Of a DNA stretch of 51,210 nucleotides, positions 19,412-40,544 are shown in pieces; positions within the stretch are counted from its first letter, which is position 1; every line of letters begins with the position of its first letter. The notes under the pieces were generated by a model. The model was not told the DNA's origin, ran no database searches, and was given only the letters and a program-made list of their open reading frames with translations. The translations under genes were made by a program, and so were the position numbers. Source of the DNA: an uncultured Eubacteriales bacterium (GTDB lineage Bacteria > Bacillota > Clostridia > Oscillospirales > Oscillospiraceae); the NCBI GenBank assembly GCA_900314485.1, contig OMVL01000018.1:1-51210 (forward strand). Direction: 5' to 3'.

Positions 19412-19555
19412 CTCGACGTTCCTCAGAAAGAATCTTATAATTAAATGCATTATAACAAAAGTTTCTCCCCATGACAAGGGCAGGGAAGGGGGCAGCGCAC
19501 ATTTCCCTGTCCGCCCGTGGGAGACAGGAGGACGTCGTCCGAGCCGGAAAAATGC

Positions 19556-20616: not shown

Positions 20617-20732
20617 GTGCCGGAAAAGGGAAAATGAATCATAAAACGCCGTCATAGCCCCTAAAAAATGGGACATTTGCATAGCCTCATCACCGGAGAC
20701 GGGCTACACTGCCCTCAAGGAGGATGAGCACT

Positions 20733-22877: not shown

Positions 22878-23292
22878 TCAGGTTAAACTGTTTTGGCTCA
22901 CCAGCGGCAATGTGTGCACCGTTGGAAGTAACGACTACGCCACCAGCATCCTCGGTAAAACGATTACTGCCAGCAAGACGATCACCGTCAGCTCTGACCG
23001 CAGATTGAAGCGGGACATCACCGTACTGGACGGCCGGCACCAGGCCCTCTTTGACCGGCTCCGCCCGGTGAGCTACCGGCTGCGGGAGGACGAGGACGGA
23101 AAGGAACACATCGGCCTTGTGGCGCAAGAGGTACAGGAGGCATTGGAGCAGTCCGGCCTGACAAACAGCGCCTTGGTACAGGCTGACAGCGAGGGCATGC
23201 TGAGCATCGGCTACGGCGAGCTGATCGGACTCTTGATCGATGAGGTGCAGACGCTGAAAGCCAGAGTGAAAGCGCTGGAGGAGCGCAGCTAA
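22759..23292 (+). CDS. S74 intramolecular chaperone domain, 3' part of the tail-fibre gene
   Basis: The frame encodes 177 residues and continues the fibre in the next frame (RSGNLSNTGTISAGSAVYA, then TGIVAGNNYGFYVRN). The last 110 residues form a peptidase S74 / endosialidase-type chaperone: SSDRRLKRDI carries the Ser and Lys used for self-cleavage, followed by LRPVSYRLREDEDGKEHIGL, VAQEVQEALEQ and a coiled-coil end (DEVQTLKARVKALEERS). In phage fibres this domain trimerises the protein and then cuts itself off. There is no ribosome site before ATG 22759, so this piece is not likely to be made separately. Confidence 0.75.
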   Translation: MRSGNLSNTGTISAGSAVYATTGIVAGNNYGFYVRNASGSQVKLFWLTSGNVCTVGSNDYATSILGKTITASKTITVSSDRRLKRDITVLDGRHQALFDRLRPVSYRLREDEDGKEHIGLVAQEVQEALEQSGLTNSALVQADSEGMLSIGYGELIGLLIDEVQTLKARVKALEERS

Positions 23293-23366: not shown

Positions 23367-25619
23367 TTACAGATACTTGTGGCAGGTACGGGCGATAACG
23401 TCCAGCTGCTGCTTCCGGGTCAGGTCAATAAACTTGACGGCATAGCCGGAGACACGGATGGTGAAGTTGGCATACTCCTCCTTCTCAGGGTGCTCCATAG
23501 CGTCAATCAGCTTCTCGGTGCCGAAGACGTTGACGTTCAGGTGATGAGCGCCCTGATCGAAGTAGCCGTCCAGCGTCTGGACCAGGTTGGTCTTACGCTC
23601 CTCCAGCTCGTGGCCCAGAGCATCGGGGTTGATGGTCTGGGTGTTGGAGATGCCATCCAGAGACCAGTGATAGGGGATCTTGGCCACGGAGTTCAGAGAG
23701 GCCAGCAGACCGTTCTGCTCAGCGCCGTAAGAGGGGGAAGCGCCGGGGGAGAAGGGAGTATAAGCCTCACGGCCGTTGGGCATGGCGCCGGTGGCCTCGC
23801 CGTAGACCACGTTGGAGGTAATGGTCAGGATGGAGGTGGTGGGCTCGCTGTTGCGATAGGTGTGACGGCGCTTGATCTTTTCCAGGAAGGTCTTCAGGAG
23901 CCACACGCCGATGTTGTCGGCACGATCGTCGTCATTGCCGTACTTGGGGAAGTCGCCCTCGATCTCAAAGCCGGTGGAGATACCGTCCTCGTCACGGAGC
24001 ACCTTGACCTTGGCGTACTTGATGGCGCTCAGGGAGTCGATCACATGGGAGAAGCCGGCGATACCGGTGGCGAAGGTACGGCGGACATCGGTGTCGATGA
24101 GGGCCATCTCCGCTGCCTCGTAGTAATACTTGTCGTGCATATAGTGGATCAGGTTGAGGACGTTGACATAGATGTCAGCCAGCCAATCCAGCCAGAAATC
24201 ATACTTCTGAATGACCTCGTCATAATCCAGATACTCGCTGGTGATGCGCTCCATCTTGGGGCCCACCTGGATGCGGTGCTTCTCGTCAAAGCCGCCGTTG
24301 ATGGCGTACAGCAGCGCCTTGCCCAGGTTGGCACGGGCGCCGAAGAACTGAATCTCCTTGCCGGTCTGGGTGGCGGAGACGCAGCAGCAGATGGAGTAGT
24401 CGTCGCCCCAGACAGGCTTCATCACGTCGTCGTTCTCATATTGGATGGAGCTGGTGTTGATGGACACCTTGGAAGCATAGCGCTTGAAGTTGTCGTTCAA
24501 CTGAGAGGAGTAGAGAACGGTCAGGTTGGGCTCGGGGGAGGGGCCCATGTTCTCCAGAGTGTGGAGGAAACGGAAGTCGGTCTTGGTGACCATGCTGCGG
24601 CCGTCCATACCGATGCCGGCCACTTCCAGAGTAGCCCAGGTGGGGTCGCCGGAGAACAGCTGGTTGTAGGAGGGGATGCGGGCGAACTTGACCATGCGGA
24701 ACTTCATGGTCATGTGGTCAATGATCTCCTGAGCCTGCTCCTCGGTCAGCACACCGTTCTGGAGGTCACGCTGGAAGTAGATGTCCAGGAAGGTGGAGAT
24801 GCGGCCCACGGACATAGCAGCGCCGTTCTGGGTCTTGACGGCAGCCAGATAGCCGAAGTACAGCCACTGGCAGGCTTCCTTGGCGTTGCTGGCGGGCTGA
24901 GAGATGTCGTAGCCGTAGATCTTGGCCATTTCCTTGATGCCCTTCAGAGCCTTGATCTGTGCGGCAATCTCCTCGCGAAGACGGATGACCTCGTCGTACA
25001 TATTGCCGCAGCCGCAATTCAGTTTATCCTGCTCCTTGGCCTTAATCAGATAGTCAATGCCGTACAGGGCGATCCGGCGGTAGTCGCCCACAATACGGCC
25101 GCGGCCGTAGGTGTCGGGAAGACCGGTGACCACGTGGGTCTTACGGGCCAGACGCATCTCCGGAGTATAGGCGGAGAAGACAGCATCGTTATGGGTGGTC
25201 ATATACTCGGTGAAGATCTTCTTCAGCTCGGGATCCACCTCATAGCCGTAGGTCTCGGCAGCCTGAACGGCCATCTTAATGCCGCCGTAGGGCATGAAGG
25301 CACGCTTCAGGGGCTTGTCGGTCTGGATGCCGACGATCTGCTCCAGATCCTTCAGGTCCTCATCGATATAGCCGGGGCCGTAAGCGGTCAGGCCGGAGAC
25401 CACCTTGGTTTCGCAGTCCAGAACGCCGCCCTTGGCGCGCTCTTCCTTCTGCAGCTTCTGCAGAGCGCCCCACAGCTTGTTGGTGGCCTCCGTGGGGTCA
25501 GCCAGGAAGGACTCGTCACCGTCATAGGGCTGATAGTTCTTCTGAATGAAGTCACGGACATTGACTTCGTCTTTCCAGATACGGCCTTCAAAGCCGTCCC
25601 ACTGTTTGAAATCGCTCAT
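23367..25619 (-). CDS. pflB: Formate C-acetyltransferase (pyruvate formate-lyase)
   Basis: The protein has 750 residues from ATG 25619 (TGGAGG upstream). It splits pyruvate with CoA into acetyl-CoA and formate by glycyl-radical chemistry, in the cytoplasm and without oxygen. The catalytic cysteine pair sits in [18 protein letters not shown] (about 411-413; here three cysteines in a row). The radical glycine is in RVSGYAV near residue 725. The rest matches the family from start ([20 protein letters not shown]) to end. Its activase, pflA, is separate at 41367-42119. It is probably a major fermentation enzyme. It has its own promoter with a palindromic site. Confidence 0.97.
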
Positions 25620-25648
25620 AACTTTAACCTCCATCTTTTGACAAACAT

Positions 25649-25713
25649 GGTAACTTACGTTAGTTACCACTAACTTTCAATAAACAGTATAGCACGCTTT
25701 TGGAGAAATGCAA
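25649..25713 (-). promoter_or_regulatory. pflB promoter and downstream palindromic site
   Basis: On the minus strand, TTGCAT (25713-25708), a 16-base spacer and TATACT (25691-25686) form a promoter. The imperfect palindrome at 25649-25668 (GGTAACTTACGTTAGTTACC, 7-bp arms) lies about 10-30 bases past the expected transcription start, a typical repressor position. It does not match the Rex consensus. Confidence 0.6.
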
Positions 25714-25792
25714 GGGATTTGTTATTTTTTTCACAGGCAAATTTTCGATTCTGGAATGTGAATAAATGTATGCCGAAACTGGTTTGAATTTT

Positions 25793-25822
25793 GGGGAGAT
25801 TGCCAATTGCAGCAATCTCCCC
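25793..25822. repeat. Hairpin after the DUF1540 gene
   Basis: GGGGAGATTGC (25793-25803) pairs with GCAATCTCCCC (25812-25822). On the minus strand it follows the DUF1540 stop by a few bases, but it is followed by AAAATT rather than a T-run, so it is more likely an RNA-stabilising stem or a weak terminator. Confidence 0.45.
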
Positions 25823-25829
25823 TGTCTGC

Positions 25830-26006
25830 TTAGCGGTCGCTGCCGCCCTTTGCTTTGAACGAAGCGCACTCGGTGCAGTCGCAGCTCTTGGGCTGAGCGG
25901 CGGTACAGCCGACTTGGATGGTGCGCAGGGTGCAGTATTCCTCCCACTGGTCATGGTAAGCGCAGGTGTCCACACTGCACTGGATGCATCCGTTGATCTT
26001 TTCCAT
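25830..26006 (-). CDS. DUF1540 small cysteine-rich protein
   Basis: The protein has 58 residues, starting MEKINGCIQCSVDTCAYHDQ. ATG 26006 is preceded by AGGAGGTTTGCTTT. Eight cysteines (7, 10, 15, 25, 34, 42, 44, 47), with the C-x2-C and DCTEC pattern, match DUF1540 proteins of clostridia. These are thought to bind metal, and some are spore-associated; the function is not established. It lies upstream of pflB on the same strand with its own ribosome site and about 210 bases between, where pflB has its own promoter. Confidence 0.85.
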   Translation of the reverse strand: MEKINGCIQCSVDTCAYHDQWEEYCTLRTIQVGCTAAQPKSCDCTECASFKAKGGSDR

Positions 26007-26035
26007 AAAGCAAACCTCCTTTGATGGTGTTTCCC

Positions 26036-26193
26036 TAGTAGTCCGTTAACCCTAAAACTTTAATCATCCGCGGCGTCTGTTTACGCCATACTTTGTTGTC
26101 GTCTTTGGCGGGCGTCAGCCCGCCTGCATCCTCCGCCTCGTCTGACGAAAACATACTTGCGGCTTAAACAACATTTAGGATTAACAGACTACT
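26036..26193. mobile_element. MITE-like element with 20-bp terminal inverted repeats
   Basis: The left end AGTAGTCCGTTAACCCTAAA (26037-26056) is matched by the inverse of the right end TTTAGGATTAACAGACTACT (26174-26193) at 18 of 20 positions. The 158-base unit has no gene. Its centre holds a GCGGGC-GTCA-GCCCGC hairpin. It lies just 5' of the DUF1540 gene, where it could affect that gene's promoter. Confidence 0.65.
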
Positions 26194-26228
26194 GCAGGGG
26201 AGAGAAAAACCATTCAGAGACAAAAGGA

Positions 26229-26278
26229 AAAACGGGCAAAAGCGGCTGACTGCTTGTCAAAACGCTTTTGCCCGTTTT
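26229..26278 (-). terminator. Terminator of the sugar/polymer operon
   Basis: On the minus strand, AAAACGGGCAAAAGCG (26278-26263) pairs with CGCTTTTGCCCGTTTT (26244-26229) and is followed by more T residues. It lies 16 bases after the rfbB stop. Confidence 0.85.
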
Positions 26279-26294
26279 AGCGGGGACAGCAGAC

Positions 26295-27314
26295 TTACCG
26301 GCTGCCGTACATTTTTTCGTAATATTGGGTGTATTCGCCATTCATGATCGGCTCCCACCAGTCCTGGTGCTCCAGATACCATTTGATGGTCCGCTTGATG
26401 CCGTCGGCAAATTTGGTTTCCGGCAGCCAGCCCAGCTCCTGGTGGATCTTGGTGGGGTCGATGGCGTAGCGCAAATCGTGGCCCTTCCGGTCGCTGACAT
26501 AGGTGATCAGGCTTTCCGGCTTGTTCAGCTCCTTACAGATCAGCTTGACAATGTCAATGTTTCGCATCTCATTGTGCCCGCCGATGTTATAGACCTCTCC
26601 GACTCTGCCCTTGCGTATCACGAGATCAATGGCCTTGCAGTGATCCTCCACATACAGCCAGTCCCGTACATTCAGCCCCTCTCCGTAGACAGGAAGCGGC
26701 TTATCATGGAGGGCGTTGATGATCATCAGGGGGATCAACTTTTCCGGAAAGTGGTAGGGCCCGTAGTTATTGCTGCAGCGGGAGATAGAGACAGGCAGGC
26801 CGTAGGTCCGGTGATAGGCCAGTACCAGCAGATCCGCCGACGCCTTGGACGAACTGTAGGGAGAACTGGTGTGGATGGGGGTGGCCTCTGTAAAAAAGAG
26901 GTCGGGCCGTTCCAGGGGGAGATCACCGTACACCTCGTCGGTGGAGACTTGGTGATAACGCCTGATGCTATACTTCCGGCAGGCGTCCATCAGGACGGAG
27001 GTGCCGAGAATGTTGGTCTGAAGGAAGATGCCGGGGTCCTCAATGGATCGATCCACATGGGACTCGGCGGCAAAATTTACCACAATGTCCGGATGCTCCT
27101 CTTCAAACAGGGCATATACGGCCTCTCGGTCGCAGATGTCCACTTTGCAGAAGCGGAAGTTGGGCTTACCCAGGACGGACGCCAGTGTGGAAAGATTACC
27201 CGCATAGGTCAGCTTGTCCACGCAGATCACCCGATCCTCGGAGTGGGCGGACATGAGGTGAAAAATAAAGTTGCTTCCAATAAAGCCGGCTCCTCCGGTT
27301 ACGATAATTGTCAT
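26295..27314 (-). CDS. rfbB: dTDP-glucose 4,6-dehydratase
   Basis: The protein has 339 residues, the usual length. It converts dTDP-glucose to dTDP-4-keto-6-deoxyglucose with a bound NAD. It is an extended-type short-chain dehydrogenase: the NAD motif TGGAGFIGSNF (6-16), STDEVYGD (substrate-site Thr-Asp-Glu, near 133), and YSSSKASAD with the catalytic Tyr-x3-Lys (near 160). RDWLYVEDHCKAIDLV is also typical. It is the last gene of a six-gene operon, 6 bases after the acyltransferase gene. No rmlA, rmlC or rmlD is next to it, so the product is probably not rhamnose but an amino-deoxyhexose made with the aminotransferase at 28444. Confidence 0.95.
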   Translation of the reverse strand: MTIIVTGGAGFIGSNFIFHLMSAHSEDRVICVDKLTYAGNLSTLASVLGKPNFRFCKVDICDREAVYALFEEEHPDIVVNFAAESHVDRSIEDPGIFLQTNILGTSVLMDACRKYSIRRYHQVSTDEVYGDLPLERPDLFFTEATPIHTSSPYSSSKASADLLVLAYHRTYGLPVSISRCSNNYGPYHFPEKLIPLMIINALHDKPLPVYGEGLNVRDWLYVEDHCKAIDLVIRKGRVGEVYNIGGHNEMRNIDIVKLICKELNKPESLITYVSDRKGHDLRYAIDPTKIHQELGWLPETKFADGIKRTIKWYLEHQDWWEPIMNGEYTQYYEKMYGSR

Positions 27315-27320
27315 GGCTTG

Positions 27321-27893
27321 TCACGCTTTCTTATGATAGCGCTCCATAAACTGAGCTTCCAATTCTAAGACTTTCCTGCTTCTGTCCTTCAAGCGTTTGC
27401 AGGGGATACCCACATACATTCCCCAATCGCCCAGTGATTTGCTCACCAGCGACATTGCCCCTATGGAACTGCCCTCTCCAACCGTAACGGCAGGCAGAAC
27501 GGTGCATCCGGTTCCCACAAGAGAATGCCTTCGGAAGGTCACTTTGCCTCCGGTCACATGTCTAAACTCATCTGGAATGGTCGGATTAGTCATTGCCAGG
27601 CCCGAATAATCGTCACTGTCAGCGTAAACGGCGCTTCTTGAGGAAATACCGACAAAATCTTCCAATACAATGCCGGATTTCCCACCAAACAGGAACACAC
27701 CGGCGGCAATGTGGATGTGATCGCCGATGGAAATGTTTCCGCTTAAAATAGAAAAATCATCAATTCGATTGTAGCTGCCGATGGAAATGTTTCCGGCTCC
27801 GTAAATGCTCACATTTCTGCTGATAAGATTACCTGCTCCGATCGACTTAAATCCGATCTCTTTTAGTTCGTCGTCTGTGTAGAAACTTGTCAT
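27321..27893 (-). CDS. Left-handed beta-helix acyltransferase (sugar O/N-acetyltransferase)
   Basis: The protein has 190 residues of hexapeptide repeats (patterns such as ISIGSYNRIDDFSILSGNI and VTVGEGSSIGAMSLVSKSL), the mark of the LbH acyltransferase family. It transfers acetyl or another acyl group from CoA, probably in the cytoplasm. It starts FYTDDELKEIGFKSIG, like many polysaccharide-locus acetyltransferases. It is 2 bases from the GtrA gene and 6 from rfbB. With a VioA-like aminotransferase in the same operon, N-acylation of dTDP-4-amino-4,6-dideoxyhexose (a VioB-like role) is the likeliest job. O-acetylation of another sugar is the alternative. Confidence 0.85.
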   Translation of the reverse strand: MTSFYTDDELKEIGFKSIGAGNLISRNVSIYGAGNISIGSYNRIDDFSILSGNISIGDHIHIAAGVFLFGGKSGIVLEDFVGISSRSAVYADSDDYSGLAMTNPTIPDEFRHVTGGKVTFRRHSLVGTGCTVLPAVTVGEGSSIGAMSLVSKSLGDWGMYVGIPCKRLKDRSRKVLELEAQFMERYHKKA

Positions 27894-27895
27894 TT

Positions 27896-28438
27896 TTATC
27901 TCCCTTTCTCAGCTGTCCTGTCACTGCGAAACGCCCAGAACTTGTTAATGACAAAGTTGAGCGGAACGCTGATCAGCAGATTGATGATGGGCGCCAGAAA
28001 TTCAGAGATGTGGAAAACTTGCACCCAGACATAGAGCAGCAGGCTGTTCAGGAACAGGCCGGTAAAAGAATAGGACGCATAGGTCTTGAGCAGCGACTTC
28101 CACCAGGAGCGCTGTTCGCCGCTCTGAAGGGTAAATACCACCTTGTTGTTCCAGTAAAAGGACCACAGCACGCTCAGGAGAAACGCCATGAACTGAGCCG
28201 CATAGTAATCCACATCCGGCAGGCAGTGCAGCTTCCGCAGGATGAGCAGCGACACCACATAGACGCCGTAGGACACGAGCGTGTTGGTCACGCCCACAAT
28301 GCCGAAGCGGACAAACTGCAAAAAGGTTTGAAAGAACTCCTCCGGCATCTCCCGGCCGGTTAGGCGGAACAGCCGCTCTAAAAGGAATCTAGCAATTCTG
28401 GCAATCAGCGCCCAGAACCAGCCTGCAAGCTTCTGCAT
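27896..28438 (-). CDS. GtrA-family membrane protein (lipid-linked sugar flippase)
   Basis: The protein has 180 residues with four membrane helices in the GtrA pattern (FVRFGIVGVTNTLVSYGVY for helix 1; LSVLWSFYWNNKVVF; LKTYASYSFTGLFLNSLLLY; LISVPLNFVINKFWAFR at the end). GtrA/GtcA proteins are thought to flip a polyprenyl-phosphate sugar to the outer face of the membrane. The operon also has the matching glycosyltransferase and a YfhO protein, the three parts of a known type of surface glycosylation system (GtcA-CsbB-YfhO in B. subtilis). About 40 extra N-terminal residues, with a hydrophobic start, precede the core. Confidence 0.92.
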   Translation of the reverse strand: MQKLAGWFWALIARIARFLLERLFRLTGREMPEEFFQTFLQFVRFGIVGVTNTLVSYGVYVVSLLILRKLHCLPDVDYYAAQFMAFLLSVLWSFYWNNKVVFTLQSGEQRSWWKSLLKTYASYSFTGLFLNSLLLYVWVQVFHISEFLAPIINLLISVPLNFVINKFWAFRSDRTAEKGR

Positions 28439-28443
28439 AGAGA

Positions 28444-29568
28444 TCAGCTCCGTTTTCTCTGACCGATCTCTTTGATGGCAGCGCAGATGCGGTCCACGTC
28501 CTCCAGAGGGAGATCGGCGTAGAGGGGGAGGGTCAGGATCTCTGTGGAGATCTGCAACGCCTTCGGCGTCTCATGCACATCAAAACGGCCCTCGTAGCAG
28601 GCAAAGCTGTTGGTAATGGGATAGAAGTACTTTCTGGTAAAGATCCCATACTCCTTCAGCGCTTCATACAGCGCATCCCGGGATGCGCCAAACTGAGATG
28701 CATTTATCCGAATGGGGAAGTAGGCATAGTTGGGCTTGACGCCCTCCTGTTCTGCATTCAGACCAATGCCGGAGATCTCCGCCAGATGGGCGCGGTAGCG
28801 GCTGACGACCTGGCCGCGCTTTGCGATCTCCTCGTCTACATGCCGCAGGTTGCAAAGGCCCATGGCGGCGCAGAACTCGTTCATTTTGGCGTTGGAGCCC
28901 ACAAAGGAGACTTCTTCCTCATTGCGGATGCCGAAGTTCTTCAGCCGCTCCAGAGTCAGCTCCAGAGCCGGGTCGTGGAGGCAGATGGCTCCGCCCTCCA
29001 CAGTGTTGAATACCTTGGTGGCGTGGAAACTGAACATGGATGCATCGCCGAAGCTGCCGACGCCCTTTCCGTCCTTACGGACGCCAAAGGCATGGGCGGC
29101 ATCGTAGATCACCTTCAAATGATGTCGGTCGGCGATTTTTTGGATCTCCTCCACGGCGCAGAGATTTCCGTACACGTGCACCGGGACGATGGCCACTGTT
29201 TGATCGGTAATGAGCGCCTCAATCTTACGCTCGTCAATGGTATAGTTATCCTCCCGAATGTCACAGAACACCGGCTTGAAGCCGTTGCGCACGATGGCAT
29301 GGGTGGTGGAGGCAAAGGTAAACGGCGTGGTGATCACCTCTCTGCCTTTGGGAAGATCTAACCCCTGCAGCGCCAGCTCCAGGGCATTGTGGCCATTGGT
29401 GAAAAGCAACAGCTTCTCGACACCCAGATATTCTTCCAGCGCCTTTGCCAGCTTTTGGTGCTTTTCGCCCATATTGGTCAGCCAGTGGCTGTCCCACAGC
29501 CCCTTGATCTCCTCCATGTATTCCTCCATGGGCGGCATAGAGGAACGGGTCACCAAGATTTTATCCAT
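28444..29568 (-). CDS. DegT/DnrJ/EryC1/StrS sugar aminotransferase, VioA-like
   Basis: The protein has 374 residues from ATG 29568, after GGAGGAATCACAAA; the frame continues to 29589 without a better start. It is a pyridoxal-phosphate aminotransferase acting on keto-sugar nucleotides. The cofactor lysine is in SFHATKVFNTVEGGAI (near 185), and VIYDAAHAFGV precedes it. The start (VTRSSMPPMEEYMEEIKGLW, then WLTNMG) and the SFHATKVFNT motif resemble VioA, which makes dTDP-4-amino-4,6-dideoxyglucose directly from the RfbB product. No 3,4-ketoisomerase (FdtA/QdtA) is nearby, which supports a 4-amino rather than a 3-amino sugar. It overlaps the glycosyltransferase gene by 8 bases. Confidence 0.9.
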   Translation of the reverse strand: MDKILVTRSSMPPMEEYMEEIKGLWDSHWLTNMGEKHQKLAKALEEYLGVEKLLLFTNGHNALELALQGLDLPKGREVITTPFTFASTTHAIVRNGFKPVFCDIREDNYTIDERKIEALITDQTVAIVPVHVYGNLCAVEEIQKIADRHHLKVIYDAAHAFGVRKDGKGVGSFGDASMFSFHATKVFNTVEGGAICLHDPALELTLERLKNFGIRNEEEVSFVGSNAKMNEFCAAMGLCNLRHVDEEIAKRGQVVSRYRAHLAEISGIGLNAEQEGVKPNYAYFPIRINASQFGASRDALYEALKEYGIFTRKYFYPITNSFACYEGRFDVHETPKALQISTEILTLPLYADLPLEDVDRICAAIKEIGQRKRS

Positions 29569-30514
29569 TTTGTGATTCCTCCGAATCAATATTTACGGTC
29601 TCCTTCACAGTGGCACGAGGCAGCCCGCTGGCGGAGATAAACAGTCTTCCGATATATTCTCCCACAAGGCCGATGCTCAGCAGCTGAACACCGGAAAAGA
29701 AGAGAATGACGACCATGAGCGACGTCCAGCCCAGCGCCCTGGGCGGGAAAATCAGCCGCTCAATCACCAGCGCAATGGCAACGAGAAAGCTGATCACAGT
29801 GATCCCAACGCCCAGATAGGCAGCCAGACGCAGGGGCTGGACCGAATAGTTCAAAAAGCCGTTCATCCACAGACCCAGCAGCTTTTTGAGCGTATAATTG
29901 GACTTGCCGTTGGTCCTAGCCCGATGCTCGACCTCTACATTGGCGACATTTTTCGTCAGTGCAAAGATGATTCCGTACATGTAGGGATAGTTGTTTGCAT
30001 ATTTGATGATGCCGTCCTTGATAAATTTGCGCATCACAAAGAAGCTGTTTACCCGGATATGCTTGGGCTTCCCCAGCATGATCTCCGTCATCTTGTTGTT
30101 GACCTTGCTGCCAAACAGGCGAAAGGCGCTCTCCTTCTGTTCCGGATACTTGGCAAAGACCACATCGTAGTTGCCCTCTTCCAGCACCTGCAGCATGTGC
30201 AGGATCTCGTAGGCCGGCATCTGCAGATCGTCATCCATCTCCACCACAAATTCGCCTGTGGCATACCGGTATCCTTCAATGACAGCGTTGGTCTGCCCGG
30301 CGTTTTTTGCCAGGTGAATCACCTTGATGCGGGGATCCTGCTCCGCCAGAGACTTGACCAGAGGATACACCCCGTCCGGGCTGTGATCGTCCACCAGGAC
30401 GACCTCATAGCAGTAGGCCTCCGACTGGGCAAAAGCGCTGTCGATCTCCTTCAGAACCGCCTCAATGGTGCGCTCTGAGTTGTAAAGGCCGATTACAATT
30501 GAAATTTTTTTCAT
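29561..30514 (-). CDS. GT2 glycosyltransferase, polyprenyl-phosphate sugar synthase type
   Basis: The protein has 317 residues. The GT-A domain at the N-terminus (ISIVIGLYNSERTIEAVLKE; LVDDHSPDG; VEMDDDLQMP with the metal-binding DxD) is followed by two membrane helices near 230-300 (LGVGITVISFLVAIALVIER and a second). This is the GtrB/CsbB/DPM1-like layout. It should move a sugar from its nucleotide to undecaprenyl phosphate on the inner face of the membrane. Its 5' end overlaps the YfhO gene by 4 bases (ATGA type), which points to coupled translation. The sugar is inferred from the neighbours to be an acylamino-deoxyhexose. Confidence 0.92.
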   Translation of the reverse strand: MKKISIVIGLYNSERTIEAVLKEIDSAFAQSEAYCYEVVLVDDHSPDGVYPLVKSLAEQDPRIKVIHLAKNAGQTNAVIEGYRYATGEFVVEMDDDLQMPAYEILHMLQVLEEGNYDVVFAKYPEQKESAFRLFGSKVNNKMTEIMLGKPKHIRVNSFFVMRKFIKDGIIKYANNYPYMYGIIFALTKNVANVEVEHRARTNGKSNYTLKKLLGLWMNGFLNYSVQPLRLAAYLGVGITVISFLVAIALVIERLIFPPRALGWTSLMVVILFFSGVQLLSIGLVGEYIGRLFISASGLPRATVKETVNIDSEESQNG

Positions 30515-33351
30515 ACTTTGCCTTCTTCACTTGACTTGAACATAGTTTTTTTCTTCTTAATGCGATGAAACACGACAATGCCTGCAAAGCTGACGCACCC
30601 CACAGCAAACATAGCCAGTGTTGCGTGGAATCCGAAGGGACGATAGCGAAGCTCTACCGTATGCGCACCGGCGGGCACATCCACGCCGATAAAGCCAATG
30701 TCGACCCTATAGATTTTTTCCGCTTTTTCGCCGTCGATCCAGACGTTCCACCCGCCGTTATCCGGGATGCTGAGGTACAGCAGACCGCCGTCGCTGTCCA
30801 CGGTGCCCTTCACGTAATTGTCCCGAAGTGTTGTTACCTGAAGGCGGTTTGCCTCAAGTGCCCGAGCCTGCTCGTCAAAGTCCTGCTGAGAGACGGCCAG
30901 AACCTGGATGCTGTCAAAGTGATAAGTGCCTGCGATGGGGAACCTAATGACGATGTCCTCGTCCCAAGTCTCACAATAGCCTAAATTGCTCATGTAATCA
31001 ACAATGCCGATAGTGGCCTGGTTGCTGCCGTCACTGTTGAGAAGCCGCTTTTGAATGTTGCCTGCGCTTATGGCAAGTTCAAAATTGGCGTAGGGCTGAT
31101 AGCTAAGGTTATTCAGCGCAAATCTGTCTCGCTGTAGCCTGGTAGGATCGTCGCCCAGTGTTTGCTCCTGTTTTGCTTCGTAGGTCAAAGGTTCCCGGGT
31201 AAAGTTTTTAAAGAAGACATACACTTCGCTGTTTTCAATCAGGGAGGGCTTCAGCGTCAGCGTGGCATTGGCACTGCTCACTGTAATGGTGCCATCCTCT
31301 ATTGTCAGGCCATTTCCCGGAAGGAACTCGCACGGGACCTCCTCCGTATGCAGCTGAAGCTGCTGCGCATCTGCCTCCGCAGCGATCCCTTTGTAATCAT
31401 CGTCCACAACGGCGGCCTGCATCAGGATCTGCTCCCGATCCAGATAGCTGTATTCCTCAAAACGGCTGTCAGAGATCACCCGGGAATAGACATAGCCCAG
31501 ACTGGGCTCAAACTTACTTTTCAGAATTTGAATATCACCATCTGTGCTCCAGGGGGCAAAACCGTAACTGGCATATGCGGCCCCCTGATCGTTTTTTGCT
31601 GTAAAATATTTGACTCCCGTCAGATAATTTAAGCGGCTGCGGTTATCGTTGCCGAATTCGATCACGCGAACGATATAGTTTTGATTGTTGCATACGGCCT
31701 TGTAGAAATCCGCCGTGTCTGCGTCCAGTGAAGATATATATGTGGTCACGGAACGGACACCGTACATGATCGACTCGTTTGCGGGCCAGTGGAACACAGT
31801 GGTATAGGAATTCAGCGTGATAAAATTCCCCTGATCGGATCGATAAAAAGAACGGTCTTCCTTCTGAAGCGAAGCGATGCTGCGCTGGGTAGAATCGCTG
31901 TATTGGCGATAGGATTGACCAATATCTGTGTAATTGTCCAATGTGGAGCCGTATAATGGGTAATGGTGGACCAGGTACACGCAGGCAATATTCACTGCAG
32001 TTAGCAGCAACAGAAGCCTTTCCGTGCGTGCGAGATGAGATGCTTTTTTGCCGGATTTCCCAGACAGCAATATCCAGCCCGTGCAGCAGACAAAAGCCAA
32101 ATTTATGATCGCGACCGAAAGTGACGGTACCGTCAGCACATTAAAAAAGCATCCGCTGATGACTAAACTGACAGAAAACAGCCCAAAGAGAATTCCAAGT
32201 CCCCATTTATACTGAGCTCTGTAATCTGTACGCTGAAATTTTTCCAAATCCAATACACTGATACCGGCCCAAATATAGAAGAAAGCCAGCATATAGCACC
32301 ATCTGCCGGTGGGATAGCTGAAGCCGTTGAACACGCTGCAGACAACGGGGAAAAATAAAAACAGCATGTTCAGGGCGAACATAGAAACGGGCAAGCGGTT
32401 TCTCTTCTGGCGGAAGTCAATGACAAAAGCGGGGATCAGGGCGGCAAAAACGCCTCCGGTGGAGATTGCTGAATAATTACCGAACATCTGTCTGCCCGTG
32501 ATCAGAGCGGGGAAAAACTGCAGAGCATTGCCCGGTAAGGGCAGCAGAGTCACACTGGCAGAGGACTCCTTGCTTGTGCGAAGCACTGCCCATAAATACG
32601 GGAACATGAGGGGGGCGGCAATACACACAGCAACGATTACGCAGCCGGCGAAACGGAGAATGCGCAGACAGAACCTGCGCACATTTTTTTCACCCGGCAG
32701 GAAGAAGAAGCTGACAACAGAGTAAATTGCCAGCATAAGGGCTGACATATAGGAGAAATAGGCGCTGGTGATCAGCGAAAGCGCTACGCTGATAATCAAC
32801 AAATAAGGCCGGCCTTCCCGGTCCAGCTTTTCAATGCCCGCAAGCATCAGCGGAAACAGGATCAACGGAATCAGAAAAAATTCCTGAATGATAGCAGTCA
32901 GCGTCCAGAGTGAAAAAGTATAACCCAATCCGCCGATGACAAGCTTATATGTGCAATGGTTCTGAATGCGCAGGAAAACCATCATTGCAATTCCCGCAAA
33001 ATAGAGATGCAGATAGGTTGCCAATCCGCATCCGATATCTGCCTGCTCCGGTGGAAACAGGGCAGCAATATAGAAAAGAGGATCCGTCAGAAAGAAATAA
33101 AGAGTTCCGATGGTGTCGCCGCCAAGTCCTATCTCCCAGGACCAGAAGCTAAACCCTTTTCCGGCTATCAGATCGCCGATTTTTCTTTGAAAATCCAAGA
33201 GCATGGGATAGCACTGCATAAAGCCGTCTGTCGTACACAAAACGCTTTTCCCATAAAGAAGAAACCAGAAAAATACAAAGAAACCGACCGTAAAGAAAAA
33301 AACTGTGTAAATCAGAAGCGGTTTTTTAAAGCCGGCTTTCTTCTCGATCAT
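30511..33351 (-). CDS. YfhO-family membrane glycosyltransferase (GT-C fold)
   Basis: The protein has 946 residues. It has about 12 membrane helices in the first 440 residues, a large extracellular domain (about 450-900; it includes SLGYVYSRVI and GGWNVWIDGEKAEKIYRVD, the YfhO C-terminal motif near 860) and a last membrane helix before the Lys-rich tail. An acidic residue after helix 1 (CTTDGFMQCYPMLLDF) fits the GT-C catalytic loop. In B. subtilis YfhO moves a lipid-linked sugar to lipoteichoic acid outside the cell. It is the first gene of the operon; GGAGCGATACGAA precedes the ATG. It should choose the polymer that receives the modified sugar. Confidence 0.9.
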   Translation of the reverse strand: MIEKKAGFKKPLLIYTVFFFTVGFFVFFWFLLYGKSVLCTTDGFMQCYPMLLDFQRKIGDLIAGKGFSFWSWEIGLGGDTIGTLYFFLTDPLFYIAALFPPEQADIGCGLATYLHLYFAGIAMMVFLRIQNHCTYKLVIGGLGYTFSLWTLTAIIQEFFLIPLILFPLMLAGIEKLDREGRPYLLIISVALSLITSAYFSYMSALMLAIYSVVSFFFLPGEKNVRRFCLRILRFAGCVIVAVCIAAPLMFPYLWAVLRTSKESSASVTLLPLPGNALQFFPALITGRQMFGNYSAISTGGVFAALIPAFVIDFRQKRNRLPVSMFALNMLFLFFPVVCSVFNGFSYPTGRWCYMLAFFYIWAGISVLDLEKFQRTDYRAQYKWGLGILFGLFSVSLVISGCFFNVLTVPSLSVAIINLAFVCCTGWILLSGKSGKKASHLARTERLLLLLTAVNIACVYLVHHYPLYGSTLDNYTDIGQSYRQYSDSTQRSIASLQKEDRSFYRSDQGNFITLNSYTTVFHWPANESIMYGVRSVTTYISSLDADTADFYKAVCNNQNYIVRVIEFGNDNRSRLNYLTGVKYFTAKNDQGAAYASYGFAPWSTDGDIQILKSKFEPSLGYVYSRVISDSRFEEYSYLDREQILMQAAVVDDDYKGIAAEADAQQLQLHTEEVPCEFLPGNGLTIEDGTITVSSANATLTLKPSLIENSEVYVFFKNFTREPLTYEAKQEQTLGDDPTRLQRDRFALNNLSYQPYANFELAISAGNIQKRLLNSDGSNQATIGIVDYMSNLGYCETWDEDIVIRFPIAGTYHFDSIQVLAVSQQDFDEQARALEANRLQVTTLRDNYVKGTVDSDGGLLYLSIPDNGGWNVWIDGEKAEKIYRVDIGFIGVDVPAGAHTVELRYRPFGFHATLAMFAVGCVSFAGIVVFHRIKKKKTMFKSSEEGKV

Positions 33352-33848
33352 TTCGTATCGCTCCTCCCATGGCAGGATAAATCTCCTGTGTTGTCTCCAA
33401 GATGTGGGCAGCGGCCTTCAACCGGAGATCGAAAGCCTGCATGGTGCAATACAGGCATACAGACATTTTGAATTGATAGGGCAGACGGAAATCAAATATC
33501 AATGTTATAACTTTTCTGTATAACATACCACACCGATTATAAACTTGCCTTTGACAGTATAACATTTTTGTTACAATGTGTCCATGACTTTGTACAAATT
33601 TTCGGCTGCGCGCTCCGACGCGGCAGCACAGAAAAGGGGAGGTGATCAGGCCCGGACCCGGGTGAGCTGCCGCATCGTCAAACTTTCCTCATTTTTAGGT
33701 GGCATTTATTCGCTCTATGTGGTAGAATAAACTATCTATTGGAAAATGTAGTTCTATTGCTTAAGCGTGCGTTTGTATACTGAGTGAGGTACATCTGTCT
33801 GCGCCGGGCGAATCACATTGAGATCAAACAAGCTGGAGGAGAAACACG
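33352..33848. promoter_or_regulatory. Divergent control region of the surface-polymer locus
   Basis: On the minus strand TGGACA (33584-33579), a 17-base spacer and TATACT (33561-33556) form a probable operon promoter, leaving a leader of about 200 bases before YfhO. On the plus strand TTGACA (33551-33556) and TACAAT (33572-33577, 15 bases apart) overlap it. The motif TGTTATAC or its inverse occurs three times between 33510 and 33562, like an operator. No convincing gene is seen. Confidence 0.5.
33620..33673 (+). ncRNA. Candidate structured leader element
   Basis: GCGGCAGC (33620-33627) pairs with GCTGCCGC (33666-33673). They enclose a GC-rich core with CCCGGACCCGGG, inside an otherwise AT-rich leader of the 33849 gene. 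It matches no riboswitch family I can recall. It could be a leader structure, or a stem that once ended transcription. Confidence 0.28.
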
Positions 33849-36800
33849 ATGAAGCTGAAATCGATGGTAAAGCGAGTGCTGAAGAAGGTGGGAATCATTC
33901 CTGACAAGCGGTCGGCCAAACAGGCCAAGGGCGCCAAGGAGAAGAATGGAGCAACACCGCAGGAGCTTTCCGAGGCTGAATTGGAGCGCCTGGCACTGGA
34001 GGCGGAAGAAAAGGCCAGACAGGAAGCGGAAAAAGAGGAATTGGAAGCTGTTATACAGCGCTATGCCGAATTTGACAGAGACCATGTGTGGGCATTTGTA
34101 GCAGGAAATTACAGCCAGGATTTCCGGGGAAATCCCAAGTACCTGTTTATCTATATCAACAAGTACCGTCCGGACATTGCGGCCTATTGGCTGTGCAGCG
34201 ATGAGGAGACCATTGCACAGGTGCGGGCTCTGGGTTATCAGGCGTATCGGCCGGAGACACCGGCAGCCCAGTATGTGATCAACCGCACAGGCGTTTTTGC
34301 CGCCGAACATGTTAAAATAAATATCCCGAGCGGTCTGGAGGATGTGAAGTACCTCAATCTTTGGCACGGTGTTGGCGGCGTAAAGGCAGTGGAGCGGAGT
34401 CTTACCACCGGGCGGCTGGCCATAGAGATCGCAAAAAAGTACGTCAACAGAAATGCGTTTTACCGGACGCATGAGCTGTATCTGGCACCGTCCCGGTTCA
34501 TAGAATCCATTGCTATGGAGCAGCTGGGTCTGGACGAAGACAAAATCATTCGTGCCGGCTATCCCCGCTGCCTCTATCAGAAAAACTACGAGAGAGTGGC
34601 AAGCTTTGACCACGATCTGCGCCGCAGCAGACAGCTGCCGGAGGATACTCGCCTGGCGGCATACGTGCCGACATACCGCAATGAAAACGGCACGGAGCTG
34701 TTTACCCATGCGATCCCAGACATTGACCGGCTGATCGAGGTTTGTGAAAAAGAACACATTCTCATGGTGTTTAAGATGCACCCGATATTGGAAGACGAGA
34801 TGGGCTTCCAGCAGGCCAAGGAGGCCTATCAGGACTGCAAGTGGCTGTGCTTCTGGGACAATCGGGACGACTTCTACGAAGTGATGGATCAGATGGATCT
34901 GTGCATCATGGACTATTCCTCCATTTTCACCGATTTCCTCTCTGTGGGGGTAAAGCACTTCCTGCGCTATACCTTTGACTTTGACAATGAGGACCTGGAC
35001 TTCCCGATGGACTATGACGAGGCGACGCTGGGCCGCAGATGCCGCACTTTTGAAGAACTGCTTGCCGCTCTGGGCGATTACGAGAAGGATGATCTCACAG
35101 AGAGCATCGAGCGGATCACAAAGCTGTACTGGGAATATTCCGACAATGACAGCATGGAGCGGATCATTGAGCAGACCATTGCCTTTGTCCCGGAAAAGCG
35201 GGAATTTCCCACCCTTTACAGCTTTGACGTTTTCGATACGCTGATCTCCAGGAAGGTGCTCGATCCCATCGGTATCTTCTATTATGTAAGAGAGCGTATC
35301 CAGGACCGGGGCGGCTTCCCCATGCCGCTGATCATGGACTATCCCAAGATCCGAAGCGCTGCCGAGTCGGTTATGCGGGAATTTTATCACAAGACGATCG
35401 CCCTGCGGCAGTCCGACCGGGTGGAGGTCACACTTGATGAGATCATTGCCCGCATTGCCACGACCTACAGTCTTACCCCGGAGCAGGCGTCGCTGCTGAA
35501 GGAGTGGGAGCTGAGGGCAGAGCTGGAAAATGTGATCCCGCTGCCGGAGCAGATCGACCAGGTGAAGCGTCTGCTGGAAAACGGCGACACCGTCGTGCTG
35601 ATCAGCGATATGTATCTGCCCAAGGATGTCATTGAGCAGATGCTGGAAAAGGCAGATCCGGTGCTTTCAAAGCTGCCGCTGTTCCTGTCCAACGAATACG
35701 GGGTGCTCAAGACCTCCAAAATGCTCTACCTGGAGGTATATAAGAGCTTCAAGCCGTTCTACGATTTCGGACAGTGGATCCACTACGGCGATAATCCCTG
35801 TGCAGACTGGAACCAGGCGGCTGGGTTTGGGATCCGTGTCAGAAAAGTGCGCAAGCCCGGCTTCAAGGACATGCATCGGCAGCTGGTGGAGGAACTGGGC
35901 ACGTACGACAGCTACCTGGTTGCCGCCATGCAGGCAAGGCTTTGCCAGGAGACATTTTCCGCGAAAGACGAATTTGTCTGCTCTTACGTTTCCCTCTGCA
36001 TGGTCCCCTATATCGACTGGGTGCTGAGGGACGCTGTGCGCAGAGGATATGAGACGCTGTACTTTATTTCTCGGGACGGCCATCCGCTCAAGCGTGTTGC
36101 GGACGCTCTGATCGAGGAGCGGGGCCTGAAGATCAAGACGAAGTATATCTACGCCTCCCGAAGAGCGTGGAGAATTCCGTCCTTCATCCATGATATTGAT
36201 GAAGATTTCTGGCTGGGACATGGCAATTTTACCGATGTGATCTCCAAGGAAAAGCTCTTCCGGGCCATGGACTTAGACGAGGAGACCTTCCGCAGACTGT
36301 TTCCGGCCATCGACCCGGATGCCATCGACTTTGAAGATGGCGCAACGCGCAACAGACTGGTTGAGATCTTTAAGAACTCCGCCGATTACCGGGAGTACCT
36401 GCTGGCACAGAGCGCAAAGGAGCGGGTGCTGGTCAGCGGCTATCTGGCCCAGGAGATCGATCGAAACGAGCAGTTCGCCATTGTGGAATACTGGGGCCGG
36501 GGCTATACGCAGGACAACATGGTGCGCCTCTGGCAGGACATTGTGGGAGAAGAGGTGAGCGTACCGTTCTACTATACCCGCACTACGCTGCCTACGCTCG
36601 GATCTTCCATCCGCTACAATTTCACCACCAACGCCGTAAGGCAGTTCTTCCTGGAGGGCATCTTCGCAAATATGCCCTATCGAAGTGTGGAGGAATATGA
36701 GGAGAAGGACGGGAAAATCGTTCCCATCATTCGCAAGATCTCCTATCAGGAGGACCTGTATGAGTCCATGCAGAAGTACCTGCCTGAATTTGCCAGAAGG

Positions 36801-38324
36801 TATGCAAGACTTGACTTGCTGCACCCTGAAGATACAGATCATATGCTGTATGACTTTGCGCTGAACTATTACGGAGAAAATCTGACCAATCCCGCCTACG
36901 CAGAGCAGATTGGGCCGCTGATCGATTCTGTGGCCCTCTATGGAAAAAAACGTGAATTTGCCCCTCCCTACACAATGGAACTGCTGGACCGCTTTGCAAA
37001 CAAGGAGATCTCAAGAGGCTCCATGAAGGTCACCACCAGCGTGAACATGTCTGTGACCCGCTCGGATGAAGCGGTCAAGAAGCGCTACTTCGAAATGTAC
37101 CAGATCCTGCCCGAAGACGAAAATCTGGCAGGTGGCCGTCTGCTCTCGGAAAAGGAGATCGAGGAAAACAGAGCATATCAGGAAAAATATACCGCGCTGA
37201 GCCAACGGGCCTCTGATTTCAGCCATCTGTATGAAGACGCCATCCAAACAGTGGAGATCTCTGATCAGATCCTGATCCTCTCCGAGGGCAAGAAGAAGTC
37301 CAAGGACCGCATGGACCTGCTGGAGGCCGGCTTGAAAAAGCAGGACCGCTATGAGGTTAAGACGCTGCTGCTAGGCAAGCGGAAGGCAGCTGACGATGAG
37401 GCGCTGGCCAGAGAAATTGCCTCTGCCAGATACCTTGTCATGCCAAAGCCCATCAGCTTCCTTGCCAAGACGGCCTTCCGTGAGGGGACAGAGGCGATCC
37501 TGCTTCCCGCAACGCCCTTTGTCCTCTACAACGGAGGACTACAGGTAAGCGCATTCCTCAAGTGGAAGAAGAAGTATGCCGCATTGGCGGCAGGAAATGA
37601 CTTTTCTGTGATCCAGGTGCCCGCTGCAAGCAGGGCGGAGTATTTCCGGAAATGCTACGGCACCAGAAGCGACGTCAGATGCGACCTGCTGGGCAACTAT
37701 ATGACCGATGTCTATTTCGACGACGCCTTCCGTGCCGGTGCGGAGGAGAAGCTACTCCGGCTCTTCCCGGAGGCGGCCGGCAAAAAGCGGATCCTCTATA
37801 TGCCCAGATGGCGCACCCGGAAGAACTGCCCCGAGTGGCTGGACATCCTGGATATGGAGCTGCTGCGGGATCTGATCGGAGAAGAGTACGTGGTGCTTGT
37901 CTGGTTCAACAAAGAGCAGATGCTCCTGGAGACCATGAACACCATTGATGTGCCCGGCTTTAGCAAGCTGCTCCTCAAGGGCATGATGCTGCGTGAGATG
38001 ATGAGCGCCAGTGACGTCATTATCGGCGACTACAATGACACCTTCTTTGAGACGCCCATTGTGCGCAAACCGGCATTTTCCACGGCCTATGACTATGAGC
38101 AGGTGACCCAATCGGGCAATATGTCCATTAACGCAAATTCCTTTGAGCAATTCCTGTTCTGCCCGGTCATTCGCACCGCTCCTGAGCTGGCAGAGCATCT
38201 GAAACACATCGACCAGTACGATTTTACAGCCATGGATGCCTTTAAAGAGGAGTTTTTGACCATGTGCGACGGACACTCAACAGAACGGATCGCGGACTAC
38301 CTGACCGAAAACCGTCACAATTGA
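33849..38324 (+). CDS. Four-part polymer synthase: TagF-like / HAD / middle domain / degenerate TagF-like
   Basis: The protein has 1491 residues, cytoplasmic, with a basic N-terminus and a Glu/Ala/Lys-rich coiled coil (35-70). Residues 80-450 are a CDP-glycerol glycerophosphotransferase-type (TagB/TagF) domain with LWHGVGG (about 171), KMHPIL (about 309) and MDYSSIFTDF (about 354), so it has the expected catalytic residues. Residues 455-690 are an HAD-like hydrolase (FDVFDTLISRK, ISDMYLPKD, HYGDNPCADW). Residues 700-1100 form a conserved middle region (YETLYFISRDGHPLKRVADA; EYWGRGYTQDNM) often fused to HADs in capsule loci. Residues 1138-1475 are a second TagF-like domain in which WHG and KMHP are missing and DYSS is DYND. 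It probably builds a polyol-phosphate chain. It diverges from the sugar-decoration operon. Confidence 0.85.
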   Translation: MKLKSMVKRVLKKVGIIPDKRSAKQAKGAKEKNGATPQELSEAELERLALEAEEKARQEAEKEELEAVIQRYAEFDRDHVWAFVAGNYSQDFRGNPKYLFIYINKYRPDIAAYWLCSDEETIAQVRALGYQAYRPETPAAQYVINRTGVFAAEHVKINIPSGLEDVKYLNLWHGVGGVKAVERSLTTGRLAIEIAKKYVNRNAFYRTHELYLAPSRFIESIAMEQLGLDEDKIIRAGYPRCLYQKNYERVASFDHDLRRSRQLPEDTRLAAYVPTYRNENGTELFTHAIPDIDRLIEVCEKEHILMVFKMHPILEDEMGFQQAKEAYQDCKWLCFWDNRDDFYEVMDQMDLCIMDYSSIFTDFLSVGVKHFLRYTFDFDNEDLDFPMDYDEATLGRRCRTFEELLAALGDYEKDDLTESIERITKLYWEYSDNDSMERIIEQTIAFVPEKREFPTLYSFDVFDTLISRKVLDPIGIFYYVRERIQDRGGFPMPLIMDYPKIRSAAESVMREFYHKTIALRQSDRVEVTLDEIIARIATTYSLTPEQASLLKEWELRAELENVIPLPEQIDQVKRLLENGDTVVLISDMYLPKDVIEQMLEKADPVLSKLPLFLSNEYGVLKTSKMLYLEVYKSFKPFYDFGQWIHYGDNPCADWNQAAGFGIRVRKVRKPGFKDMHRQLVEELGTYDSYLVAAMQARLCQETFSAKDEFVCSYVSLCMVPYIDWVLRDAVRRGYETLYFISRDGHPLKRVADALIEERGLKIKTKYIYASRRAWRIPSFIHDIDEDFWLGHGNFTDVISKEKLFRAMDLDEETFRRLFPAIDPDAIDFEDGATRNRLVEIFKNSADYREYLLAQSAKERVLVSGYLAQEIDRNEQFAIVEYWGRGYTQDNMVRLWQDIVGEEVSVPFYYTRTTLPTLGSSIRYNFTTNAVRQFFLEGIFANMPYRSVEEYEEKDGKIVPIIRKISYQEDLYESMQKYLPEFARRYARLDLLHPEDTDHMLYDFALNYYGENLTNPAYAEQIGPLIDSVALYGKKREFAPPYTMELLDRFANKEISRGSMKVTTSVNMSVTRSDEAVKKRYFEMYQILPEDENLAGGRLLSEKEIEENRAYQEKYTALSQRASDFSHLYEDAIQTVEISDQILILSEGKKKSKDRMDLLEAGLKKQDRYEVKTLLLGKRKAADDEALAREIASARYLVMPKPISFLAKTAFREGTEAILLPATPFVLYNGGLQVSAFLKWKKKYAALAAGNDFSVIQVPAASRAEYFRKCYGTRSDVRCDLLGNYMTDVYFDDAFRAGAEEKLLRLFPEAAGKKRILYMPRWRTRKNCPEWLDILDMELLRDLIGEEYVVLVWFNKEQMLLETMNTIDVPGFSKLLLKGMMLREMMSASDVIIGDYNDTFFETPIVRKPAFSTAYDYEQVTQSGNMSINANSFEQFLFCPVIRTAPELAEHLKHIDQYDFTAMDAFKEEFLTMCDGHSTERIADYLTENRHN

Positions 38325-38367
38325 CAGTCTCCTTCCCACATCGACATCTTTATGAGGAGGATTTCGC

Positions 38368-38583
38368 ATGGACCTGAAAAACGGTACGATCACCATCGGC
38401 CAGCTGGCCAAGAACCCCAAGGCAATTGAGCTGCTCAATCAATACGGCAAAGACCTGATCCACCATCCCATGGCCATCGTGGTCAAGGGATGGACGGTGA
38501 ATCAGGCGATTGCCTTTGCCCGGAAGCACGGAGCGAGAGAGGAGCAGATCCAGACAGTGCTTCGCCAGCTGGAATCGATCTGA
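38368..38583 (+). CDS. Small DUF1858-like protein
   Basis: The protein has 71 residues. ATG 38368 follows GAGGAGGATTTCGC. The pattern ITIGQLAKNPKAIELLNQYG, then TVNQAIAFARKHG and a final helix, resembles the DUF1858 helical fold, but without its cysteines. The function is unknown. It follows the 1491-residue synthase by 43 bases and may be co-transcribed with it. Its last 101 bases overlap the convergent CmpB-like gene. Confidence 0.65.
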   Translation: MDLKNGTITIGQLAKNPKAIELLNQYGKDLIHHPMAIVVKGWTVNQAIAFARKHGAREEQIQTVLRQLESI

Positions 38584-39097: not shown

Positions 39098-39191
39098 GTC
39101 GCACCTCCCGTCTGTTAACATGCCGCAAATGGGCCAAATTATGACGCAAAAAGCCCTCCCATTTTCATGTAAAACGGCGGAGGCGGAAACC

Positions 39192-39220
39192 TTGTCGGAA
39201 TCAGTCTCCTATGATAGAAT
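39192..39220 (+). promoter_or_regulatory. pyrB promoter
   Basis: TTGTCG (39192-39197), a 17-base spacer and TAGAAT (39215-39220) lie 30 bases before the GTG start. Confidence 0.5.
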
Positions 39221-39250
39221 AATACGAATCGAAAAAAAGGAGCGATAACG

Positions 39251-40318: not shown

Positions 40319-40344
40319 TTCTTGCCCGGATTGGAAGAAAAAAC

Positions 40345-40373
40345 TTGACAACCTCGTATAGCCGTGATAAAAT
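40345..40373 (+). promoter_or_regulatory. Promoter of the tRNA operon
   Basis: TTGACA (40345-40350), a 17-base spacer and TAAAAT (40368-40373) form a near-consensus promoter, about 20 bases before tRNA-Gly. Confidence 0.85.
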
Positions 40374-40393
40374 GTTCAAGCTGATAACGGCCT

Positions 40394-40467: not shown

Positions 40468-40470
40468 TAT

Positions 40471-40521
<51 letters not shown>

Positions 40522-40544
<23 letters not shown>

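Follow-up and report, generated by a model that had tools for sequence, protein, structure and literature searches.

The window analysed here is the whole of contig C21 (51210 bases), part of a 1.77-Mb genome in 76 contigs that is 97.7% complete. It carries a run of six open frames on the minus strand at 26295-33351, in the order yfhO, GT2, aminotransferase, gtrA, acyltransferase and rmlB. The reading that we favour with moderate confidence is that these genes, together with one divergent neighbour, constitute a block whose products would make 4-amino-4,6-dideoxyglucose (Qui4N), acylate it, load it onto a lipid, flip it across the membrane and attach it to a polymer outside the cell. The six genes are as follows.

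30511..33351, minus strand: YfhO-family GT-C glycosyltransferase, 946 amino acids (PF09586, 345.9 bits; cut-off 28.5)
29561..30514, minus strand: CsbB/PgfS/ArnC-like family 2 glycosyltransferase (GT2), 317 amino acids (PF00535, 99.9 bits; cut-off 23.3)
28444..29568, minus strand: DegT/DnrJ aminotransferase, 374 amino acids from ATG (PF01041, 340 bits; cut-off 19.8); the longest frame starts from TTG at 29589
27896..28438, minus strand: GtrA-family membrane protein, 180 amino acids (PF04138, 78 bits; cut-off 26.1)
27321..27893, minus strand: left-handed beta-helix acyltransferase, AntD-like, 190 amino acids (Hexapep PF00132, 46.7 bits; cut-off 27)
26295..27314, minus strand: RmlB, dTDP-glucose 4,6-dehydratase, 339 amino acids (TIGR01181, 490.6 bits; cut-off 365.1)

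The first-pass annotation of this DNA had described a six-gene run with gaps or overlaps of 8 bases or less. All six frames are open on the one strand, and all six families score over their Pfam or TIGR01181 cut-offs. As listed, the frames are spaced from yfhO to rmlB by -4, -29, 5, 2 and 6 bases. The aminotransferase, however, most likely starts not at the listed TTG at 29589 but at the ATG at 29568, which is the eighth codon of the listed frame and has GGAGG ahead of it; its spacing from the GT2 gene is then -8, and the description therefore holds. Conversely, the operon had been called complete, with every step of the pathway present, and this is incorrect because rmlA, whose product makes dTDP-glucose, lies outside the run. 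Motifs that we take to be catalytic are present throughout: T125-D-E and Y153xxxK in RmlB, K185 and D156 in the aminotransferase (numbered from the ATG at 29568), the acidic triad DDD94-96 in the GT2, S84 and D94 in the acyltransferase, and D42 in YfhO.

In the cytoplasm, dTDP-glucose would be supplied in trans by RmlA, for which the genome holds a single match over the cut-off (473 bits, on contig C22) and two weaker matches below it. RmlB would convert this compound to dTDP-4-keto-6-deoxyglucose, from which a DesI-type aminotransferase would form dTDP-4-amino-4,6-dideoxyglucose (dTDP-Qui4N). The PDB chain nearest to the window aminotransferase is 2po3 (E 3.6e-59), which we take to be DesI, and the best NCBIfam model is also DesI (TIGR04427, 283 bits), followed by PseC (228 bits) and two WecE models (200 and 158 bits). 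The lack of a ketoisomerase in the run had been read as favouring a 4-amino over a 3-amino sugar, and the genome as a whole agrees. There is no match in it to the FdtA/QdtA 3,4-ketoisomerase (PF05523) of the 3-acetamido-3,6-dideoxy sugars Qui3NAc and Fuc3NAc, a search that was positive in 1 of 14 control genomes. Nor is there a match to the RmlC epimerase of the dTDP-rhamnose pathway, which was found in 11 of the same number of controls.

The acyltransferase would then N-acylate dTDP-Qui4N, with an acetyl or a longer acyl group. It aligns without gaps across residues 1-185 with six PDB chains at E values of 1.1e-57 to 8.7e-59, the best being 3vbi; the source file annotates these chains as galactoside O-acetyltransferase, and we take 3vbi and its kin to be AntD of the anthrose pathway and variants of it. 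Comparison of five of the alignments shows a residue other than that of 3vbi at position 84 in three chains and at position 94 in one, and the window enzyme has the 3vbi residue at both (S84 and D94). Across 35 related stretches, drawn from 33 loci, these residues are conserved in 30 and 34, respectively. A 36-row tree places the window enzyme together with L009 and L013 at a support of 92/85 (not starred), and in both an aminotransferase gene immediately adjoins the AntD-like gene. A scan of contigs for AntD-like genes gave 18 loci, possibly omitting the own genome, of which two weak ones (L023 and L024) were dropped. Among the 16 close-relative loci assessed, a DegT aminotransferase adjoins the AntD-like gene in nine, including L018, where it is nearer to the WecE-type query (47%), and lies about 3.6 kb away in L015; RmlA and RmlB are also present in L008, L014 and L017.

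Together, rmlA in trans, the lack of RmlC and FdtA matches, and the likeness to DesI and AntD point to dTDP-4-acylamino-4,6-dideoxyglucose, which is the best-supported candidate for the product. That the sugar would be an N-acylated 4-amino-4,6-dideoxyhexose is well supported, and a gluco configuration at C4 is likely. The galacto epimer (4-amino-4,6-dideoxygalactose, Fuc4N, or a sugar of its type) or another amino-deoxyhexose seems quite unlikely as the product. DegT enzymes with a different outcome at C4 do have a common fold, and the L018 gene shows that an AntD-like enzyme may adjoin an aminotransferase of the other kind. Furthermore, the same genome has a second YfhO operon, on C22, whose aminotransferase is of WecE type (511 bits, over the cut-off of 375) and so predicts dTDP-Fuc4N. 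Yet the window aminotransferase is only 32% identical to this paralogue and scores well below its own DesI match with both WecE models, and AntD-type acylation is known for Qui4N.

For export, the GT2 would take the acylamino sugar from its dTDP carrier and load it onto undecaprenyl phosphate; besides its acidic triad it has hydrophobic segments at residues 227-259 and 260-288, near the C-terminus. GtrA, the only match to its family in the genome, would assist the lipid-linked sugar across the membrane as a flippase. YfhO, at the outer face, would finally move the sugar from undecaprenyl phosphate to the acceptor; a polyol-phosphate polymer whose synthesis involves the PF04464 protein described below is the most likely candidate. 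YfhO has hydrophobic segments between residues 10 and 461, then a long soluble stretch and a last segment at 907-931. An alignment of 18 YfhO proteins shows D42, which probably lies in the first outer loop, in 17 of them. A single-sequence structure model had a mean pLDDT (predicted local distance difference test score) of 36.6, did not confirm the GT-C fold and was not used.

The resemblance of this trio to described transmembrane glycosylation systems, proposed in the first reading, is borne out by the scores of all three families over their Pfam cut-offs. The CsbB/GtcA/YfhO systems known from Bacillus subtilis, Staphylococcus aureus and Listeria are likewise made up of a GtrA protein, a GT2 that combines an acidic triad with two hydrophobic segments at its C-terminal end, and a YfhO protein in which a conserved Asp occurs early and a long soluble region precedes the final membrane segment (PMC8035078, PMC5836110); the layout of B. 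subtilis YfhO and the first-loop Asp of GtlB are given in PMC5836110. The difference lies in the sugar. The sugars in Table 1 of PMC8035078 are galactose (Gal), glucose (Glc), N-acetylglucosamine (GlcNAc) or unknown, whereas genes of a 4-amino-4,6-dideoxyhexose pathway accompany the window trio in its operon. The window operon would then be a variant of these systems, with an amino-dideoxyhexose module that is not listed in that table. If, instead, the sugar genes and the trio were mere neighbours, the dTDP sugar would pass to another glycosyltransferase and the trio would add a common sugar such as GlcNAc, as Gram-positive trios in the table do. The AntD/aminotransferase pair of L013, which lies with GT56-family and Polysacc_synt (Wzx-type) genes, illustrates such another use of the sugar. 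However, the window genes of the two kinds are interleaved (yfhO, GT2, aminotransferase, gtrA, antD-like, rmlB) and overlap, a Pfam scan of the block found no other sugar transferase besides the PF04464 gene, and in the core operon of the genus the two kinds are likewise paired, in 15 of the 16 stretches with its YfhO. Mere neighbourhood is therefore very improbable.

The acceptor is suggested by the gene that diverges from the operon, with which the six genes form a discrete block:

33849..38324, plus strand: 1491-amino-acid protein with two PF04464 stretches, divergent from the operon (195.4 bits)
26022..38354: 12.3-kb block that comprises the operon and the divergent PF04464 gene; the nearest relative lacks it between the same flanks

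PF04464 is the CDP-glycerol:poly(glycerophosphate) glycerophosphotransferase family, and the 1491-amino-acid protein is a possible maker of the acceptor polymer. PF04464 genes adjoin both YfhO operons of the genome, and one of the two, on C22, is also adjoined by a cytidylyltransferase-family gene, which we call TagD-like. From this context, a polyol-phosphate polymer is the likely acceptor. The same system might instead modify a surface protein, as Pgf of Streptococcus mutans does, an alternative that we regard as unlikely. In NCBIfam, the GT2 and YfhO do match PgfS and PgfM2 best, but the scores are far under the cut-offs: 169 bits against 500 for PgfS, with ArnC following at 158 against 529, and 42 against 1400 and 77 against 1500 bits for the PgfM1 and PgfM2 models, respectively. 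PgfE, also encoded in the Pgf operon, is an epimerase. The abstract of PMC5856776 reports that the operon, pgfS-pgfM1-pgfE-pgfM2, modifies proteins, its genes acting on Cnm and WapA, and names no amino-deoxysugar genes in it. The PF04464 and TagD-like neighbours of the YfhO operons speak against a protein acceptor, as do the YfhO acceptors listed in Table 1 of PMC8035078, which are lipoteichoic acid and wall teichoic acid.

The block, which the first-pass annotation had not noted, is missing from this site in G416, the nearest of the relatives found here (PFL 98% identical), where blastn matches of window positions 23367-26021 and 38355-40547 to stretch L146 lie 117 bp apart. In a second genome (G400, L147), PFL and the right-hand neighbour (window 38483-39121) have matches about 0.4 kb apart. 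The site comparison covered 12 stretches, ten of them PFL neighbourhoods; the eight besides L146 and L147 matched PFL only and are uninformative on the site and the block. Per kilobase, the G+C content is 46-56% inside the block and 53-64% outside, and no clear direct repeats were found at the block edges. The PF04464 gene occurs in 1 of 32 genus genomes (the own one) at E<=1e-60, and the AntD-like gene was found in the own genome only among the 10 genus members surveyed. A YfhO orthologue is similarly confined to the own genome among 400 family genomes at E<=1e-90. Because these genes are so rare in relatives, we infer that the block was acquired here rather than lost elsewhere. At window 26037-26193, beginning 16 bases in from the block's left end, there is an element of about 157 bp that resembles a miniature inverted-repeat transposable element, with imperfect inverted ends AGTAGTCCGTTAACCC and GGATTAACAGACTACT; no copy of it was found in the loci compared, the window's own loci aside.

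The first-pass annotation had named no precedent for pairing a YfhO system with an anthrose/Qui4NAc-type sugar pathway. Within the genus, the pairing of YfhO with a 4-amino-sugar pathway is not unique but common. The own C22 operon (L006:1725-14496) encodes a YfhO of 1211 amino acids with about 370 additional N-terminal residues, the WecE-type DegT aminotransferase, a GT2 that shares 41% identity with that of the window, an ATP-grasp ligase (LAL_C2), a PaaK-like protein, RmlA, and an RmlB that shares 57% identity with the window one, and has the TagD-like and PF04464 genes upstream. At E<=1e-45, the GT2 was found at 42 places in 29 of the 32 genus genomes, the own included. Besides the window, 23 of these 42 neighbourhoods were examined, mostly top-ranked ones: own C22, a set of 20 that includes one of own C66, and two of G416. 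The core YfhO is present in 16 of the 23, and 15 of these show a WecE-like match (own C22 and 14 of the 15 stretches from other members), 13 a TagD-like gene and five a PF04464 homologue; several of the stretches stop where their contig does. Not every gene is present in every core-operon stretch (L006, L100-L117, L156). The seven stretches that lack the core YfhO are short contigs (L105, L110, L112) or have a GT2 gene that this YfhO does not accompany (L099, L115, L118, L157).

The core operon thus shares YfhO, GT2 and a DegT aminotransferase with the window operon and, in some stretches, RmlA and RmlB and the TagD-like or PF04464 neighbours. It differs in that its aminotransferase is of WecE type, an ATP-grasp ligase and a PaaK-like AMP ligase replace the AntD-like gene, and GtrA is unmatched in all 21 core-operon or GT2 stretches searched for it. 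The C22 ligases suggest an acid or amino acid amide-linked to Fuc4N. Alongside the core operon, that of the window is a separate, second module. A third type of GT2 locus (L099:5955-8110, on own C66, with L115 and L118) has an ATP-grasp ligase 38-43% identical to the core one and no YfhO match. The relatives of the window aminotransferase in the same genus (L065-L068; 56-64% identical) have one to three ATP-grasp matches nearby, and no YfhO match was found in any of these four stretches. The RmlB of L065 is 84% identical to that of the window.

The own core WecE gene (L006:8061-9128) has an in-frame gap of 27 residues that includes the DAA motif. The segment is intact in nine aligned relatives, and a motif scan found it in 14 of 15 stretches with an untruncated WecE match, all except the own. 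We take the Asp of this motif to bind pyridoxal 5'-phosphate in the aminotransferase fold, and because it is lost the own core WecE is probably dead. The genome with this gap is also the sole one of the 32 genus genomes with the PF04464 gene of the block. This raises the possibility of a surface-sugar switch, in which the WecE-made 4-amino sugar that the genus polymer receives via YfhO, of Fuc4N type and perhaps further amide-linked by the ATP-grasp ligase, would have been replaced by AntD-acylated Qui4N from the block, with its own polymer gene and an RmlA still borrowed from the core operon. Such a switch is doubtful: there is one case, and the gap in WecE may be an assembly fault. Moreover, in G414 the WecE-type match is split over two frames (L114:5299-6355), by a frame shift or an assembly fault, and that genome has neither the window-type aminotransferase nor the PF04464 gene of the block, so that damage to WecE may arise without the block.

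The first-pass annotation had also proposed a survey of co-occurrence. The six-gene set was not found elsewhere in the genomes searched; the pairing of YfhO with an aminotransferase recurs in the genus as described. AntD-like relatives were found in 14 of 400 family genomes, the own included, at E<=1e-30, and YfhO and GT2 had no match in the 17 stretches around the AntD-like genes of the other 13. Among 394 genomes of the order, two have a YfhO orthologue at E<=1e-60, the own and G480 (25% identity). The G480 stretch (L122) has GT2, YfhO, GtrA and a weak partial RmlB match and no aminotransferase or AntD-like match. L013, from the Ignavibacteria, had resembled a second case but was rejected, with its GT56-family and Wzx-type genes and a YfhO match of just 40 bits.

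Several observations weigh against the proposed Qui4N pathway. The aminotransferase, at 283 bits, is under the DesI cut-off of 650, the GT2 is below both the PgfS and the ArnC cut-offs, and the resemblance to PgfM and PgfS leaves room for a protein acceptor. Absence of FdtA is common, given that the control search was positive in so few genomes. No aminotransferase adjoins the AntD-like gene in 7 of the 16 close-relative loci, some of which are short contigs, and the 17 stretches from the own family have one close aminotransferase (L043) and one distant one (L053, 29%). The whole six-gene set was not found in any of these 33 stretches by searches with the window proteins.

Two further systems bear comparison with the window operon. 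In the Arn system (ArnB, ArnC, ArnEF and ArnT), a DegT enzyme likewise makes a 4-amino sugar, which is N-acylated when a GT2 loads it onto undecaprenyl phosphate and is transferred outside by a GT-C enzyme. Arn, however, uses a UDP-pentose and a formyl group, whereas the window operon would use a dTDP-hexose, a left-handed beta-helix acyltransferase, GtrA and YfhO. The anthrose operon includes the enoyl-CoA hydratase AntA and an O-methyltransferase; neither was found in the Pfam scan, which was limited to the window operon and the PF04464 gene. The operon antABCD (PMC10050317) shares with the window the AntD-type acyltransferase with S84 and D94, a DegT aminotransferase and an RmlB-derived substrate, and differs in that the window genes add YfhO and GtrA and the window sugar is predicted to leave on undecaprenyl phosphate. 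The open-licence literature searched held nothing that joins YfhO, GtrA and undecaprenyl phosphate with an aminotransferase, or viosamine with teichoic acid, and no description of the chemistry of such surface polymers; priority is not claimed.

If the proposed pathway is correct, YfhO-type systems would reach beyond common hexoses, and a single genus would display 4-amino-4,6-dideoxyhexoses by means of exchangeable sugar modules, either WecE with an ATP-grasp ligase or a DesI-type with an AntD-type enzyme. Exosporium-type sugar chemistry and the Gram-negative logic of Arn would be joined to Gram-positive machinery. The block would thereby offer a genetic prediction for surface polymers, and perhaps an example of a natural exchange of surface sugar through one insertion.

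Two minor features may bear on expression of the block:

33352..33848: intergenic region of 497 bp that separates the divergent yfhO and PF04464 genes; each strand bears a single sigma-70-like site (33584-33556, minus; 33699-33728, plus)
26229..26278, minus strand: perfect 16-bp inverted repeat directly past rmlB, a possible operon terminator

The sigma-70-like sites are weak evidence, because the promoter scan gave 9 sites in the scanned region against a mean of 10.4 in shuffled sequences and thus no excess. The inverted repeat is absent from the output of the terminator scan.

Beside PFL, window 20724-23292 holds two frames. The 20724 frame is a tail-fibre-like gene without a Pfam match, 28.5% identical to an Anaerostipes phage protein over 61%, and was unmatched in the 12 stretches of the site comparison. 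The frame that follows it ends in what we take to be a peptidase-S74-like chaperone sequence. Relative to L146, the PFL segment is inverted with respect to the recJ/relA-like genes (window 15082-19477 and 23367-26021).

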